Shown here: piece by piece, positions 1-28,649 of the stretch
Position numbering within the stretch: position 1 is the stretch's first letter
Layout: every line of letters begins with the position of its first letter
Source of the DNA: Clostridiales bacterium
Lineage (GTDB): Bacteria > Bacillota > Clostridia > Lachnospirales > Lachnospiraceae
Reading direction: 5' to 3'
DNA: 33,795 nucleotides
Assembly (NCBI GenBank): GCA_012523775.1
Contig: JAAYTK010000056.1
Span: 1 to 33,795, forward strand
Position numbers and translations under genes: made by a program
Notes under the pieces: model-generated
Told to the model about the DNA's origin: nothing
Seen by the model: only the letters and a program-made list of their open reading frames with translations
Databases searched by the model: none

Positions 1-20
1 GCAGCAGCATTTACAGCCAT
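1..20 (-). CDS. fliS: Flagellar export chaperone FliS, first codons only (partial)
   Basis: An ATG at 20..18 on the minus strand follows a strong ribosome binding site (AGGGAGGAAATCAC) 22 nt after the fliD stop. The six complete codons read M-A-V-N-A-A before the window ends. FliS, the chaperone that keeps flagellin soluble before export, typically begins MAxNxY-like and usually follows fliD directly, so position and start suggest fliS. Too little is visible to confirm the family. Confidence 0.55.
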
Positions 21-41
21 GTGATTTCCTCCCTGTCATAT

Positions 42-2066
42 CTAATAATTTTGATTATTGGTCATTCCTAGCATAGACATTAAAGCTGAGCTTTGTGAGT
101 TCATCCTAGCCATAGCGGTCTCCATTGCAGCGAACTGTCTATAATATTTTTCTTCTATCTCCAGCAGTCTGGATTCCATCTTTGCCAGATCTGATTTATA
201 ATTGGTTAATGTCTTAGCCATCTCTTTGTCATTGTATACCGTCAATGCACTACTAAGTGACGAGCTCTTCATTTTATCCATTAAGGCACTATAAAGATTA
301 TCCGCAAGCTTTGTCATTACCAACATGGCCTCTTCGGGATTGTTGGTTAGCGCATCCATCAGCTTATTGTCCTGACCTGCTACTTTTGCAAAGTCCTCAT
401 CACCGCTTATATGAAGAAGCCCTTTTTCCGAGTAACTTTGAGTAGTGATTCCAAAGCTGGACAATGAGTATGTCTTGCCGTTTACCGTTACGCCCTCATT
501 AAGTGTTGAACGCAGAACATTTATAAGACCACCTAAGGTATTATCTCTTCTAAGCAGGGAGTTCTTTATTTTATCCTCCCACTTTTTAATCTGTTCTTCG
601 GTCATTAATTCTCTTTCTTCATCGGTAAGAGGATCATAGCCACGGGCTGATTCGGCATTATAAGCGTCATTCATCTCTTTCAGAAGCTCATTATATGTCG
701 TAACAAAATCCTTAATCATATCATACACAGCCTCGGTATTTCCCGATACCGATATGCTGATAGTCTCATCATCCTCGGCGATCTCATTATCGAGTCCTGC
801 GGTTATGCCCTTCAATGTAAATGTCAGACCGTTAACCGAGAAATTATTGGACGAACCGGTAAGCTCGGCTTCATTATATATAACTATAGCATCAGACGCC
901 TTAACTAATACCCCTCCAAGAGGGCTGCCGCTCATCTCAACAATTCCTTCTTCATTCTTAACAATCTCACCAAGTCCCAGATTGGCAAGAATTCCTGTTT
1001 GATTGACTTGCTGATTGTTGGCATTGGCATATTCGGTAAGCAGTAAATCAAGCTCTCCCTCAGCCACTAGAAATACATTATCCTCTTCAGCTTCATTATT
1101 CTTCCATGCATCAAATTCGGCGGCTGCGGCTACTTCCGCGTCCTGTCTTAATCTGTCCTTTATAGCAGCCTGTAACACTTTATCATCTAATTCTTCGCCT
1201 TCTTCAAGGTCTTCTCTGAGTTTTTGCTCGACTTCAGGCGTCACTGCTGCTATATTGGCCTCATTAGCCATATAATCATTGATATATTTAGTCCTTACCT
1301 GCTGATGCTTAATCTCAAGAAGCTTGCCTCCGATTTCATTCTTATCTCCTGTAAGGTATGACTTAAGATATCCGTCTACTTTACTCTTGTCGGAACTGCT
1401 TAATGAATCGTAACCCAAAAAGTCACGAATAATATTCTTTTCCTGAACCTGCTCTGATGACGAGGTGGAAATCTCAAATGCATTCTCTACGCCACTGGCC
1501 TTTGAGCTTATAAATAAACGCTTCTGTCCACTGTCATAATTAGCATTTAGTCCTGCATTTTTCAATGAATTTATTAAATCACCCAGAGTTGTGCTTTCCC
1601 TGACTTCAAGACCCACTTCCTTATTAGCAGTCTTTATATGTATGGTGGTTCCCTGAGTTGCATCGAATCCAAGATCCACTAATTTAGTACTTAAGCTAAC
1701 CTGGTTTCCGTTTTTATCTGTTTCAAGCTTTGCTCCGGTGACAAATTGCGAACTGGCAAGCTGCTTAATCTTAATAAGATGGGTTCCTTCAGGGGCATTG
1801 CTCCCGGCGATTACATCTACTTTGTTTGTATTGGATGATGCCGCTTTTTTCACAGCATAACTACCCTGCATACGAAGCTTTGATAATTGATCCGTATACA
1901 AGGCATATATCTTAGCATTAAGATTGGCCCACTTTTCCTGTTTCCATTCGGTGGTAGTGATTTTATTCTGTACTCTTGTTGTCTTTAGCCTGTGTGCATC
2001 CATTAGCTTTGCAACAACGGCCTCAGTATCCATTCCGGAGATCAATCCCGATAGTCTCATTGCCAT
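42..2066 (-). CDS. fliD: Flagellar filament cap protein FliD (hook-associated protein 2)
   Basis: FliD forms the cap at the tip of the growing filament and helps flagellin subunits assemble outside the cell. The N-terminus (MRLSGLISGMDTEAVV) is the classical FliD start, and residues about 600-674 form the C-terminal helical/coiled-coil part. At 674 aa it is longer than a usual 450-550 aa FliD. Residues about 205-355 are an acidic, helix-rich stretch placed between the SSKASG...FEIS segment and the NLGLG segment, which normally lie close together; it looks like an inserted domain. The start is fixed by AGGAGGGATTAAT just upstream. It lies 11 nt after flaG and before fliS, so the three genes are probably cotranscribed from the SigD-type promoter ahead of flaG. 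Confidence 0.95.
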   Translation of the reverse strand: MAMRLSGLISGMDTEAVVAKLMDAHRLKTTRVQNKITTTEWKQEKWANLNAKIYALYTDQLSKLRMQGSYAVKKAASSNTNKVDVIAGSNAPEGTHLIKIKQLASSQFVTGAKLETDKNGNQVSLSTKLVDLGFDATQGTTIHIKTANKEVGLEVRESTTLGDLINSLKNAGLNANYDSGQKRLFISSKASGVENAFEISTSSSEQVQEKNIIRDFLGYDSLSSSDKSKVDGYLKSYLTGDKNEIGGKLLEIKHQQVRTKYINDYMANEANIAAVTPEVEQKLREDLEEGEELDDKVLQAAIKDRLRQDAEVAAAAEFDAWKNNEAEEDNVFLVAEGELDLLLTEYANANNQQVNQTGILANLGLGEIVKNEEGIVEMSGSPLGGVLVKASDAIVIYNEAELTGSSNNFSVNGLTFTLKGITAGLDNEIAEDDETISISVSGNTEAVYDMIKDFVTTYNELLKEMNDAYNAESARGYDPLTDEERELMTEEQIKKWEDKIKNSLLRRDNTLGGLINVLRSTLNEGVTVNGKTYSLSSFGITTQSYSEKGLLHISGDEDFAKVAGQDNKLMDALTNNPEEAMLVMTKLADNLYSALMDKMKSSSLSSALTVYNDKEMAKTLTNYKSDLAKMESRLLEIEEKYYRQFAAMETAMARMNSQSSALMSMLGMTNNQNY

Positions 2067-2077
2067 ATTAATCCCTC

Positions 2078-2476
2078 CTATCTTCTTTCATCAACAAGTA
2101 AGCCTGCAAGTTCCCACATTTTCTCTATCATTTCCAATGTTTTTTCTGGAGGAATCTCCCTGATAACCTCTTCTGTTTCTTTATCCAGTATTTTGATTGT
2201 CACTCTTTTAGTTTCTTCATGATATCCAAATTCACATTTTGTATTATGCTCTTTAAGTCTCCTGTTCGCTTTGGAAATCTCAGATTTTATATGACTCTCG
2301 CTGGCTGAGGCTTCTATTTCATTTTCCTTATCCGCTACAGGCTGAATATTAGGTGCCGATTGATTTCTAACCAAATCTAAGTTAACATCAGCACTTTTAG
2401 ACCCACCGGCATCATGTTTTGCTGCTGGGTTAACATTACTCTGGTATGCTGATGTTTTAACTACCTCTAAAGCCAT
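2078..2476 (-). CDS. flaG: FlaG family flagellar protein
   Basis: Small FlaG-family protein of 132 aa, usually encoded next to fliD and linked to filament length or assembly. The recognisable part is the C-terminal half: VTIKILDKETEEVIREIPPEK followed by a helix, matching the FlaG pattern of a beta hairpin plus the REIPPEx motif. The N-terminal 70 residues are low-complexity and probably disordered. The frame stays open upstream to 2602, but I place the start at 2476. That ATG has the ribosome binding site GGAGGTGTAATT, and a SigD-type promoter (2565-2591) lies inside the upstream extension. The leader has two candidate CsrA-binding hairpins. It opens the flaG-fliD-fliS group. Confidence 0.88.
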   Translation of the reverse strand: MALEVVKTSAYQSNVNPAAKHDAGGSKSADVNLDLVRNQSAPNIQPVADKENEIEASASESHIKSEISKANRRLKEHNTKCEFGYHEETKRVTIKILDKETEEVIREIPPEKTLEMIEKMWELAGLLVDERR

Positions 2477-2479
2477 AAT

Positions 2480-2495
2480 TACACCTCCATGTGTA
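2480..2495 (-). promoter_or_regulatory. Candidate CsrA-binding hairpin over the flaG Shine-Dalgarno
   Basis: The minus-strand RNA UACACAUGGAGGUGUA folds into a perfect 5-bp stem (UACAC/GUGUA) with the hexaloop AUGGAG. GGA sits in the loop and overlaps the flaG ribosome binding site. GGA in a hairpin loop at the Shine-Dalgarno sequence is the classical arrangement for CsrA repression. csrA itself is encoded 150 nt upstream. Binding is inferred, not shown. Confidence 0.55.
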
Positions 2496-2520
2496 TATAA
2501 ATAATATTTAGACAGCTTTA

Positions 2521-2536
2521 ATATCATCCTTGACAT
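2521..2536 (-). promoter_or_regulatory. Second candidate CsrA-binding hairpin in the flaG leader
   Basis: The RNA AUGUCAAGGAUGAUAU has a 6-bp stem (one G-U pair) with tetraloop AGGA. It contains CAAGGAUG, which matches the CARGGAUG core of the published CsrA SELEX consensus. Its GGA lies 41 nt from the GGA of the Shine-Dalgarno hairpin, a spacing compatible with one CsrA dimer bridging both sites. Confidence 0.5.
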
Positions 2537-2564
2537 TATAAATAAGCATATCTGTTCTTTAACT

Positions 2565-2591
2565 ATATCGGCATGATTAAAGAAAATCTTA
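2565..2591 (-). promoter_or_regulatory. SigD/FliA-type promoter of flaG-fliD-fliS
   Basis: The minus strand reads TAAG, 15 nt, GCCGATAT. The -10 element matches the Bacillus SigD consensus exactly, and the -35 matches three of four bases of TAAA. The expected start is near 2558, giving a leader of about 80 nt before the flaG ATG at 2476. Confidence 0.7.
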
Positions 2592-2623
2592 ATATCATTC
2601 AAATATATTTTACTATTAAATGG

Positions 2624-2845
2624 TTATTCGAACAACTTCTTCAATACGTCTTCATTTATATTAGTCGAAGCCGCTTCTTTATTGGATTCCAGTATCTGAA
2701 GATATAGTTCCTTACGATAGATTGGTACACTCTTAGGAGCATTTATTCCAATCTTTATTTGGTCACCCTTTATTTCTAATATTGTAATCTCAATATCATT
2801 ACCAATAATAATTGATTCATTTACTTTTCTCGATAGGGCTAACAT
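2624..2845 (-). CDS. csrA: Carbon storage regulator CsrA (translational regulator)
   Basis: CsrA is a dimeric RNA-binding protein that blocks or alters translation by binding GGA motifs; in Bacillus it represses flagellin synthesis. The 73-aa sequence starts [20 protein letters not shown] and continues [27 protein letters not shown], the full conserved CsrA core, with a short divergent tail. Its ATG overlaps the fliW stop codon (TAATG, one-base overlap), so translation of the two is probably coupled. This fits the known partner switch in which FliW binds CsrA and relieves repression. Two likely target hairpins are present in the flaG leader immediately downstream. Confidence 0.97.
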
Positions 2846-3312
2846 TATTTGCCCCCCTTCTCAGCCTTTATAGCCTTCAGCTTTTCATAAAAATAGTATT
2901 TAATCTCATAATCAGAATTCTCTACGATTACCTGGCATCCCTTTTTAGTATCCGCATTAATAACAAATGGAGCTCTTAAATTTGCTGAAATCTTAGAAAC
3001 ATCACTTGGAACCGTAACGGATACGAGCACCACTAAATTCTCCGGAGTAATTTCCCCCAGTGAAGATAAAAGCTCATCCTCTACAGTTGGGTTGTAATCC
3101 GGACATATAAGAAACGGACTAATGATAGGAATTGCAAGAGCCGGCTCTTCAATGTTTTGCAGCCATGTAATGTCAGGTCTCTCTCCGCTTTCATTGTCAT
3201 AAATAATCGCATATTTTTTGCAGTCTGTAAATCCCAGAATACCTTGATCAAAGATTATTATTTTATCTTCATCAAGCTCTACTTCACCGAAGTGCTTTGT
3301 CCTTACCAGCAT
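2845..3312 (-). CDS. fliW: Flagellar assembly factor FliW (CsrA antagonist)
   Basis: FliW binds either flagellin or CsrA. When flagellin is exported, freed FliW sequesters CsrA and flagellin translation resumes. The 155-aa protein shows family hallmarks: an N-terminal [21 protein letters not shown], then the segment with [21 protein letters not shown], and a C-terminal beta/alpha part ending SDYEIKYYF. Length is normal for FliW. The start has ribosome binding site AGGGGAAACCT. A SigA-like promoter (3358-3392) lies in the 90-nt gap after flgL, so fliW-csrA can probably be expressed independently of the flgM operon. Confidence 0.95.
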
Positions 3313-3357
3313 AGGTTTCCCCTTTCATTTGAACAAAATATGTTAATATATATATGT

Positions 3358-3392
3358 ATTATATCATATCTTCTGCGTATTTAACTCGTCAA
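3358..3392 (-). promoter_or_regulatory. SigA-type promoter of fliW-csrA
   Basis: The minus strand shows TTGACG, 18 nt, TATGAT. Directly behind it is an overlapping extended -10 (TGATATAAT, 3366-3358). Either could act; both place the transcript start in the flgL-fliW gap, about 40 nt before the fliW start. Confidence 0.5.
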
Positions 3393-3402
3393 CCTACTGT
3401 TT

Positions 3403-4896
3403 TTATAAGAAGTCAAGCAAGGAGTTTTTGACGACTCTGGAGGAGGCCGATAGAGATGAATTATATATCATCTGTGCAGCATAAAAATTGATAATGGTAT
3501 CAACAATATCCACATCCTCATTCTTTGACAGCAGTTCCTTAAAATCAACTCTCTGGCTGGAAAGCCTGTTCTCTGTCAATCTCAATCTGAACTGTCTGCT
3601 GCCCAAATCAGCAAGCGCCACATTAACTCTGTCCTGTTCTTTATTCGAGCTGGTAATTCCTCTCGAAAAAGCATTCTGCATGACTTCCTTTTTCAGATCA
3701 AGTTCTGTTTCAAGCTGCTCAAGCATTTTTTCATAACGGCTGACCTGTTCTTCTGTAAGATTCATATCCTCCATGCGTTTCTTTACCTCGGCTATTTTAC
3801 CCTCAGTATGTAATACGTCATCCACACAGTTTAGGATATCATCAATATCCCTGCCTATTTTATGTGATATTGCATCAGATCCTTCAGTATTTATAGTCAG
3901 TCTCTGATTAAAATTAACCTCATATTGAATTTCCTGTTTTTCCTTGGTAAAGGTTATCGCCGGTTGCTCCGGCTTGTTAACATCCGTCATAACACAGTTA
4001 AAATAATGTTCGGGTTTAAGTTCACCCTTATTGAAGGTTGTCTTCATATATGATAATTCTATATTGTCTGCTGTTCTTAATTCCTCATAAACGCTTTTGC
4101 TAAGAATTATTTCACCTGTTTCATATATGAAGTTAGCCCATCCCTCTTCGACGGCATAAGCATCAGAATCATAAGCCGAAATTATCCTTATATTCTCAAA
4201 CAACGGCTGTTCCTCTGACTCCCCACCCGTAACAGGCTTGGTATAACGGATGCTTCCTATATCAAAATTCTCCAGCTTATCATAGGACAGCTTTATTCTA
4301 TATGTGTTCTCCATCTGTGGAGGATTGCTAAAGTCTTCGCCCGGTTCATCATAAGAGATTAGTTCATAGCTGCCTGACACTCTGGAGACCATCTGTATCT
4401 GTTCGCCTGTAAAGTTCTCTGTAATATTATAGGTCAAATTGTTGGTATCTTCCATAAAGGTTAAGGAGCTGTCGGTCTTATATCCCGAAAACACATATCT
4501 TCCTGCGTAGTTTGTGTTTCCCTCCTGAAATATCTGATTCTTCATCTCCACAAGCTTTTGAACGATTGATGACCGGTCAGTCGCAGTTAATGTATCAGAG
4601 CTACCCTGAACACAAAGGGTGTTAATCTCTCTTAATAATTCATTAATTGTTGACAATGAGCTCTCCGTTACATCCATCCATGAAAATGCATCCGGAATAT
4701 TCTTTTCATAATACTGCTCAAGCTCTGTCAAATTGGTCCTTAACTTCAGAGCACGAACCGTAACAATTGGATCCTCTGATGGCCTCTGAATCTTCTTTCC
4801 GGTAGAATATTGTTCTTCAAGCTTGGATACATTTTGCTTATTCTTATTAATATTACTAAGCATATTATTAGTCATCATTCGGTTAGTAATTCTCAT
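3403..4896 (-). CDS. flgL: Flagellar hook-filament junction protein FlgL (HAP3)
   Basis: FlgL joins the hook-associated protein FlgK to the flagellin filament. The N-terminus MRITNRMMTNNMLSNINKNK with STGKKIQRPSEDPIVTVRALKLR is diagnostic for FlgL and flagellin-type D0/D1 helices. The C-terminus (LTENRLSSQRVDFKELLSKNEDVDIVDTIINF) supplies the partner helices. At 497 aa it is much longer than a roughly 300-aa Bacillus FlgL. The extra length lies in the middle (about residues 140-350), which would form the exposed variable domain. The start is set by GGAGGTGTCAT. It follows flgK by 46 nt in the flgM operon. Confidence 0.95.
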   Translation of the reverse strand: MRITNRMMTNNMLSNINKNKQNVSKLEEQYSTGKKIQRPSEDPIVTVRALKLRTNLTELEQYYEKNIPDAFSWMDVTESSLSTINELLREINTLCVQGSSDTLTATDRSSIVQKLVEMKNQIFQEGNTNYAGRYVFSGYKTDSSLTFMEDTNNLTYNITENFTGEQIQMVSRVSGSYELISYDEPGEDFSNPPQMENTYRIKLSYDKLENFDIGSIRYTKPVTGGESEEQPLFENIRIISAYDSDAYAVEEGWANFIYETGEIILSKSVYEELRTADNIELSYMKTTFNKGELKPEHYFNCVMTDVNKPEQPAITFTKEKQEIQYEVNFNQRLTINTEGSDAISHKIGRDIDDILNCVDDVLHTEGKIAEVKKRMEDMNLTEEQVSRYEKMLEQLETELDLKKEVMQNAFSRGITSSNKEQDRVNVALADLGSRQFRLRLTENRLSSQRVDFKELLSKNEDVDIVDTIINFYAAQMIYNSSLSASSRVVKNSLLDFL

Positions 4897-8563: not shown

Positions 8564-8590
8564 AAACATTCCACCTTCACTTTGAAAGAC

Positions 8591-9103
8591 TTATTGTTTT
8601 GCATCAAACATCCCTGTTCCTAAAGATTTTTCACTATTTTGTGATGCATTTTTAGTGTAAGTGTTGTTCCCCGGCGACATCCTTGTACTTTGAAGAAAAT
8701 TCATATTGAATTCTATCATCTCTAGGGATTGTTTTATAAGCGCTTTGTTTCTGTTATTGATCTCTACCAATGTGTTTACCGTTTCCTTAAGCTTGTCATG
8801 GAGTATAGATAAGGTCTTCTTCTCCTCCTGCTGATCCAGTAAACTAATCAGGGTACTAAGGTTCATTTTCTCGTCCTTTTTACCAAGAACAATACTTATA
8901 TCCTCCATTACCCTGATTCTTTTATTCTCAAGCGCCGTAATCTGATCTATTGATTCTTGCTCCTTTGCGGTAATTTCCTGCAAGACCGCTATGTCATCCT
9001 TGACAATAACCTGTGTCTTTTCTCTGACTACAGGTACCAGATTATTATATATCTCAAGTTCTTTACCCAATACATCTATTAACTCATTAATTAAGCTTGC
9101 CAC
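8591..9103 (-). CDS. flgN: Flagellar export chaperone FlgN
   Basis: FlgN binds the C-terminal helices of FlgK and FlgL in the cytoplasm before their export. The 170-aa protein is almost wholly helical with heptad patterns (LINELIDVLGKELEIYNNL, then KEQESIDQITALENKR and LVEINNRNKALIKQSLEMIEFNMNFL). This matches the FlgN-like family in length and layout, with a short disordered tail. The start codon is GTG, preceded by GAGG at 6 nt. It lies between flgM and flgK, the standard order in Firmicutes. Identification rests on helical pattern plus context, because the family is poorly conserved. Confidence 0.85.
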   Translation of the reverse strand: MASLINELIDVLGKELEIYNNLVPVVREKTQVIVKDDIAVLQEITAKEQESIDQITALENKRIRVMEDISIVLGKKDEKMNLSTLISLLDQQEEKKTLSILHDKLKETVNTLVEINNRNKALIKQSLEMIEFNMNFLQSTRMSPGNNTYTKNASQNSEKSLGTGMFDAKQ

Positions 9104-28368: not shown

Positions 28369-28649
28369 TATTCAACCTCCTTGTTTGAAATTTCAACCTG
28401 TAACAATTTTATGGCTCTCTTAATCTCTTCATCCCTAACCAATTTTTTATTAATTGATTCTGAAAGTCGAGGATCAAAATATCTAAGTCTTTTAACATGC
28501 TTCAGATTTTTCTTTTTCGGATGATTTAAGGTTCTAATTTTACCATCCACTAAATATACATATTCATTATGGGTATCAATTATTACATAGTATTTTCCAA
28601 TATCTCTACCGGCTATTGATTTAACGAAACAACCTATTAATTCATGCAT
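28368..28649 (-). CDS. KOW-domain RNA-binding protein (L14e/L27e-like)
   Basis: A 93-aa protein often found between map and infA in Firmicutes. The N-terminal half ([38 protein letters not shown]) is a KOW motif like those in ribosomal proteins L14e and L27e. The basic middle ([17 protein letters not shown]) fits RNA binding, and the C-terminus is helical. The role is not established in the family; position suggests ribosome assembly or translation. The start is at 28649 with GGGGATATTCA upstream. It lies 30 nt after map and overlaps infA by one base. Confidence 0.85.

Follow-up and report, generated by a model that had tools for sequence, protein, structure and literature searches.

Directly behind csrA and fliW, the contig analysed here carries flaG, the first gene of a presumed cap operon, and the question that this arrangement raises is whether the FliW-CsrA switch known for flagellin also governs flaG-fliD-fliS. 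The window, that is the whole stretch of 33,795 nucleotides from a Clostridiales bacterium of the Lachnospiraceae, has on its minus strand the order flgM, flgN, flgK, a second flgK-like gene, flgL, fliW, csrA, flaG, fliD and the start of a next gene. The names flgN and flgK are our assumption from position. An earlier note on this DNA had placed csrA and fliW just upstream of flaG, and Pfam confirms both genes, each with an open reading frame: csrA (2624..2845, minus strand, PF02599), the single csrA match in the genome, encodes the presumed binding protein, and fliW (2845..3312, minus strand, PF02623) its presumed antagonist. Pfam also confirms FlgM and flagellin-type domains in the flgL product. 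The first gene under the leader is flaG (2078..2476, minus strand, PF03646), and the next is the filament cap gene fliD (42..2066, minus strand, FliD_N/FliD_C). The start of the gene after it (1..20, minus strand) is cut by the contig end; from its position we take this gene to be fliS, and in the relatives L289-L294 a gene of 122-126 aa follows fliD. The window's CsrA and FliW match the FliW-CsrA chains of PDB 5dmb (E = 2.8e-18 and 5.1e-20) at the level of sequence. Of the genomes in the family, all 156 that match FlaG strongly carry csrA as well, leaving none among them as a natural control with flaG and no csrA; 11 more FlaG matches in the family were weak, and 46 genomes had csrA and no FlaG match.

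The flaG leader is predicted to be 82 nt long (2477-2558, minus strand), which bears out the roughly 80 nt and the SigD-type promoter proposed in the earlier note. It lies downstream of a sigma-28 promoter, TAAG-N15-GCCGATAT, with the -35 element TAAG at 2588..2591 and the -10 element GCCGATAT at 2565..2572 (both minus strand) separated by a 15-nt spacer, and transcription is predicted to start near 2558. Sigma-28-like boxes were found in 26/26 leaders of the genus. An alternative in-frame flaG start, TTG at 2602, was rejected, since the common N-terminus of the relatives begins at an ATG that matches 2476 and has a Shine-Dalgarno (SD) sequence. Because a scan of 2300-3500 found no terminator-like site, read-through into flaG from csrA is possible.

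Two hairpins had been described in this leader, each with GGA in its loop and 41 nt apart, and the minimum-energy fold of the leader holds both. The distal hairpin, UAAUGUCA-AGGA-UGAUAUUA (2519..2538, minus strand), has CANGGANG at 2525-2532 and is lifted by an outer stem (2510..2553, minus strand) in which 2544-2553 pairs with 2510-2518, as indicated by the minimum-energy fold and by the flank permutation described below. The SD-overlapping hairpin, UACAC-AUGGAG-GUGUA (2480..2495, minus strand), has CANGGANG at 2484-2491, a stem of merely 4-5 bp and its GGA unpaired in the loop. The energy of the fold was discarded as support for the structure, its values lying within chance: z was -1.58 for the leader, with 14/200 shuffles equally stable, and -0.61 for the leader plus 34 nt of coding sequence, where 49/200 shuffles folded equally well. 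Rfam gave no match at gathering score in the window, in L031 (the flagellin leader of the same genome) or in L289, and four sub-threshold matches (E from 0.76 to 8.3) fell far under their gathering scores.

The consensus for CsrA/RsmE binding is (A/U)CANGGANG(U/A), found in apical hexaloops, as described in the available text of two reports (PMC6692469, PMC4894983), and one CsrA dimer can bridge sites 10-63 nt apart according to the portion of PMC7652899 at hand, a range that includes the 41 nt from GGA to GGA here. Both sites in the leader fit the consensus exactly: the distal one reads U-CAAGGAUG-A, the one at the SD A-CAUGGAGG-U. In the window as a whole, CARGGAUG occurred 5 times against 2.1 expected, a count that 6/100 shuffles reached, and the stricter WCANGGANGW occurred 12 times against 3.7 expected, which 0/100 shuffles reached. 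A consensus fit at one SD is insufficient as proof, because infA in the same window (start 28368) has one too: ACAAGGAGGT at 28375-28384 (minus strand) lies over its SD and fits as A-CAAGGAGG-U, without a CAC..GUG stem, and is either a chance match or a non-flagellar target. Behind fliD, the next gene has an SD (ACAGGGAGGA, 27-36, minus strand) that fits WCANGGANGW too; by eye, the starts of the corresponding gene in L289-L294 do not. For the predicted sites of the flaG leader, the main evidence is conservation.

Leaders were collected by FlaG homology from the genus, here the Herbinix/Mobilitalea group, with the window counted in. FlaG was found in 27/34 congeneric genomes (again including the window's own), and 26 leaders were readable; L025 and L029 were dropped, their flaG being cut by a contig end, and L030, a distant second FlaG of one genome that lacks the sites, was excluded from the counts. 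All 26 of these homology-found leaders kept CANGGANG at both the distal and the SD place. A 27th leader, L161, was found via the SD motif, so that its SD site cannot count as independent; it carries the distal CANGGANG too, bringing the leaders with both to 27/27. The distance from GGA to GGA ranged from 36 to 55 nt in the genus (median 46), and both sites had pairable flanks in 27/27 leaders when G-U was allowed. Under the strict A/U..U/A rule the SD site was retained in 27/27 and the distal site in 14/27, the remaining 13 distal sites closing with U-G. When the part of the leader upstream of the SD was shuffled, 0.4% of the shuffles contained a distal site of full score. The 12-mer CACAYGGAGGTG occurred 39 times in the 34 genomes, compared with 6 for its reversed control, and by coordinates and downstream genes 26 copies stood before flaG, 1 in a flagellin leader and 12 elsewhere. 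Named strains with both sites include Mobilitalea sibirica DSM 26468 and Herbinix hemicellulosilytica T3/55. A record titled Anaerolineaceae bacterium MAG4 (L318) contains a congeneric Lachnospiraceae flaG locus, and this assembly is probably mislabelled or mixed.

The reach of the two sites differed beyond the genus. In the rest of the family, 109 leaders were taken from the listed matches, best scores first (L048, cut at a contig end, was scored as a miss). Of these, 103 had the SD site (100 under the strict rule) and 5 a distal site of full score, compared with 0.3% of shuffles. By sequence, then, the predicted SD site is family-wide and the distal site nearly confined to the genus. The earlier note had named a lack of conservation of the two loops among relatives as grounds to refute its dual site. 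This check did not refute it, both loops being kept in the 26/26 homology-found leaders, and the helices co-vary, but the two sites do not share one range. In a set of 80 loci, all 18 from the genus had both sites; among the other 62, the SD site stood by itself in 39, both sites were present in 4 and neither in 8, the hairpin was displaced in 10, and no start was found in 1. Elsewhere in the class, beyond this family, CANGGANG lay near the start in 26/67 leaders, most of which seemed by eye to lack the CAC..GUG stem; this figure is rough, as it includes doubtful starts such as those of L255, L277, L279 and L288, which give very short proteins.

The displaced form is a hairpin of the type ACA(T/A)GGAGGT that precedes a distinct SD (ACGAAAGGAG) by 51-60 nt. 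It was seen in nine further relatives (L357, L358, L364, L365, L367, L371, L373, L376 and L379), one titled Butyrivibrio and the others mostly Lachnospiraceae, and in L095. These hairpins were judged by eye not to be the SD of a leader peptide. More stem-loop-like sequence was observed between the hairpin and the separate SD of these leaders.

Because a MAFFT alignment put the L012 distal site in the wrong place, co-variation was tested on anchored segments. In the SD hairpin, the closing pair that encloses CACANGGAGGTG was a standard one in 94/113 leaders; shuffles averaged 55 (sd 5), and 0/10000 reached 94. The pair types were T-A (47), A-T (28), T-G (10), G-T (8) and C-G (1). The next pair outward gave no signal (50 against 46 in shuffles). 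When the closing pair was followed on a tree, built from FlaG, FliW and CsrA together since a tree from FlaG only had too few supported pairs, independent comparisons over all branches agreed 7 times, disagreed 0 times and showed no difference 7 times (sign p = 0.016); on supported branches the figures were about 3, 0 and 6, which is not significant, and this tree-controlled test was weak.

Of the pairs in the distal hairpin, the apical three held in 27, 27 and 25 of the 27 genus leaders with few changes, and the second and third were matched in 73 and 78 of 2000 shuffles. The remaining pairs of the window's 8-bp distal stem were kept in just 6 to 15 of 27. For the outer stem, the flanks were permuted: a leader's own flanks gave a mean of -8.9 kcal/mol against -6.2 kcal/mol for swapped flanks, and 0/20000 permutations across the 27 leaders did as well. 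Single leaders varied, the window's own flanks ranking 11th of 27 partners and those of L005 ranking last, with no convincing outer stem in that leader.

The hag leader of Bacillus subtilis, a flagellin leader, has a two-site layout. The flagellin leader of the window's own genome (L031) carries CsrA-type sites CATGGAGG and CAAGGAGG; no sigma-28 box was seen by eye between the upstream ORF and this gene. Of 30 flagellin leaders in the genus, 27 were used (L192, L198 and L204 were left out, as their start was not found), and 18 had two CANGGANG sites, 1 had one and 8 had none, a total of 37 sites compared with 2.2 in shuffles. One of the sites in these leaders is a non-SD hairpin, UUCGGCCACAUGGAGGUUGCUGAA, far from the start (L031; also L190-L219). 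In L289-L294, the flaG operon includes a second flagellin gene (272-322 aa), some 3.5 kb beyond flaG. These six loci were picked for having it, and by eye its leader shows both a CANGGANG hairpin at the distal place and an SD reading CAAGGAGG in 6/6.

We read the flaG leader as a two-site CsrA operator of the "tether and bridge" type that is released by FliW, with a probability of roughly 0.8; the binding of CsrA is itself a prediction, and we infer the release by FliW, the direction of the effect and its spread to downstream genes. The distal hairpin CAAGGAUG, raised by the outer stem, would be the high-affinity docking place of a CsrA dimer, whose second pocket would take CAUGGAGG over the SD, blocking translation of flaG and probably lowering the output of the fliD-fliS cistrons behind it. 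As long as flagellin is kept in the cell it would hold FliW, and CsrA would repress. Once the hook is complete and flagellin is exported, FliW would become free and remove CsrA, and the cap and chaperone would be produced along with flagellin. Such synthesis in step with flagellin export is predicted from the logic reported for B. subtilis in the available text of PMC6529632.

The likeliest rival to two working sites is that the SD site acts alone or mainly, with the distal hairpin serving as a stabilizing 5′ structure, for example against RNase, whose GGA is of little importance. The phylogenetic range of the sites speaks for this, since the family-wide SD site and the near absence of the distal site outside the genus mean that one site is evidently enough in most relatives, although the 5/109 distal sites in other genera still exceed the 0.3% of shuffles. 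A stem needed purely for stability would, on the other hand, have no need of CANGGANG, and the distal loop retains these letters in 27/27 genus leaders while the letters of the outer stem change, which makes this explanation unlikely. A second possibility concerns the SD hairpin, which could be a plain ribosome-access switch, either a self-sequestered SD or an RNA thermometer, working without CsrA. The CAC..GUG pairs do run across the SD and the closing pair does co-vary, but a stem of 4-5 bp with its GGA open in the loop and with the CANGGANG loop letters conserved is a poor fit to such a device. The same loop letters occur in flagellin leaders at a distance from the SD, and nine flaG leaders hold such a hairpin apart from their SD with no sign by eye of a leader peptide; we consider a switch of this kind very unlikely.

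The conservation of the SD site could also reflect ordinary optimization of ribosome binding together with chance. GGAGGUG is complementary to the 16S tail and makes a near-full SD, the infA SD in the window likewise reads CAAGGAGG, and outside the family, within the class, just 26/67 leaders have CANGGANG by the rough count given above. Ribosome binding alone is nevertheless inadequate, because the nine relatives mentioned above hold such a hairpin apart from the SD. CACA ahead of GGAGG is not part of an SD, yet it was found in 113/135 flaG leaders, compared with 1/37 inspected starts in the window, that one being flaG. At control starts from the same loci, CANGGANG was present at 0/110 for csrA and 1/49 for fliD, with GGAGG itself present at 40 of the 110 and 35 of the 49. 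An account from ribosome binding also leaves the distal site unaddressed, and we regard it as extremely improbable. Finally, a different RNA-binding protein might read the hairpins, for example FliW itself, which binds the hag 5′ UTR weakly according to the available part of PMC6529632. The hairpins spell the CsrA/RsmE consensus, and the gene next door is csrA itself, which renders another reader very improbable, and the two-site CsrA operator remains our preferred reading.

That flaG may be a further target of FliW-CsrA, as the earlier note had suggested, is thus supported here, but it is not new in principle, as the flaG leader of Campylobacter jejuni precedes it. In the accessible text of Dugar et al. 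2016 (PMC4894983), that leader was more than 346-fold enriched with CsrA and gave a Kd above 350 nM in gel shifts, and FlaG fell about 3-fold without FliW and recovered without CsrA. Deletion of csrA alone did not substantially change FlaG according to the same text, so an effect of CsrA on flaG may appear only when FliW is absent. Judged by this portion of the report, the two systems share a sigma-28 flaG and GGA motifs near the SD, with CsrA binding demonstrated there and predicted here. They differ in that the affinity in C. jejuni is low and fliW lies apart from csrA, whereas the present leader has two full-consensus hairpins in a Gram-positive lineage and adjacent csrA and fliW. CsrA control of flaG is thus already known from C. 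jejuni, and the flaG-leader case described here is well-supported.

In the hag leader of B. subtilis, a CsrA dimer occludes the SD and FliW releases it, as set out in the available text of PMC6529632, and the same is proposed here for flaG, although the target there is flagellin and here is the flaG-fliD-fliS cap operon. The E. coli glgC leader offers a parallel for the two-site layout: in the excerpt of PMC7652899 at hand, an upstream high-affinity GGA hairpin tethers the dimer, which bridges to an SD site, and the downstream site is described solely as overlapping the SD. In contrast to flaG, glgC is a metabolic gene, and in that excerpt its antagonists are small RNAs rather than FliW. For Roseburia and Eubacterium, the order of the locus and the presence of csrA have been described, and the leader goes unmentioned in the available portion of that source (PMC3720852). 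A literature search, conducted largely outside subscription journals, found no report on a CsrA-controlled flaG leader in Firmicutes; in the Firmicutes literature searched, FliW-CsrA was worked out on flagellin, and none was found that asks if the cap and chaperone share the signal. With its family-wide SD site and its nearly genus-only tethering hairpin, the flaG leader can be tested directly and is backed by a deep comparative record, and such leaders would open the evolutionary step from one CsrA site to a two-site operator to study. The filament cap and its helpers are probably made only during flagellin export, as is known for flagellin and for Campylobacter flaG.

Two further exact CsrA-consensus sites lie at the 3′ end of flgN, upstream of the flgK start at 8569. 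These sites, ACAAGGAUGU and ACAGGGAUGU (ACAGGGATGT, ACAAGGATGT), are located at 8608-8617 and 8677-8686 (minus strand), 69 nt apart. Counterparts with CANGGANG were found at both places in 15/18 relatives, at one place in 1 and at neither in 2. Across the window and its relatives, several codons within the sites were held against the usual choice: AGG in 18/18 (background 0.24), ACA in 16/16 at each site (background 0.33) and GGG in 16/17 (background 0.15). Codons adjoining the sites appear well conserved as well, so this constancy is suggestive rather than proof; through these putative sites, CsrA might control flgK together with its downstream genes. Taken with the flagellin leaders, these sites raise the possibility that FliW-CsrA in this lineage gates everything exported after the hook, beyond flagellin, such that flagellin, the flaG-fliD-fliS cap operon (in relatives with the second flagellin as well) and the hook-filament junction genes, flgK and those behind it, would be translated together at FliW release; to us the odds for and against this wider role look even.

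A third CsrA-type site, TCAAGGATGA, lies at 8994-9003 (minus strand), about 100 nt into flgN, in the palindromic context TGTCAAGGATGACA. In L171 and L175 (genomes G025 and G030), CACATGGAGGTG also serves as the SD for a protein whose N-terminus resembles a signal sequence (MNKKKIWMKLMLL...), and this gene is a possible non-flagellar target of CsrA.
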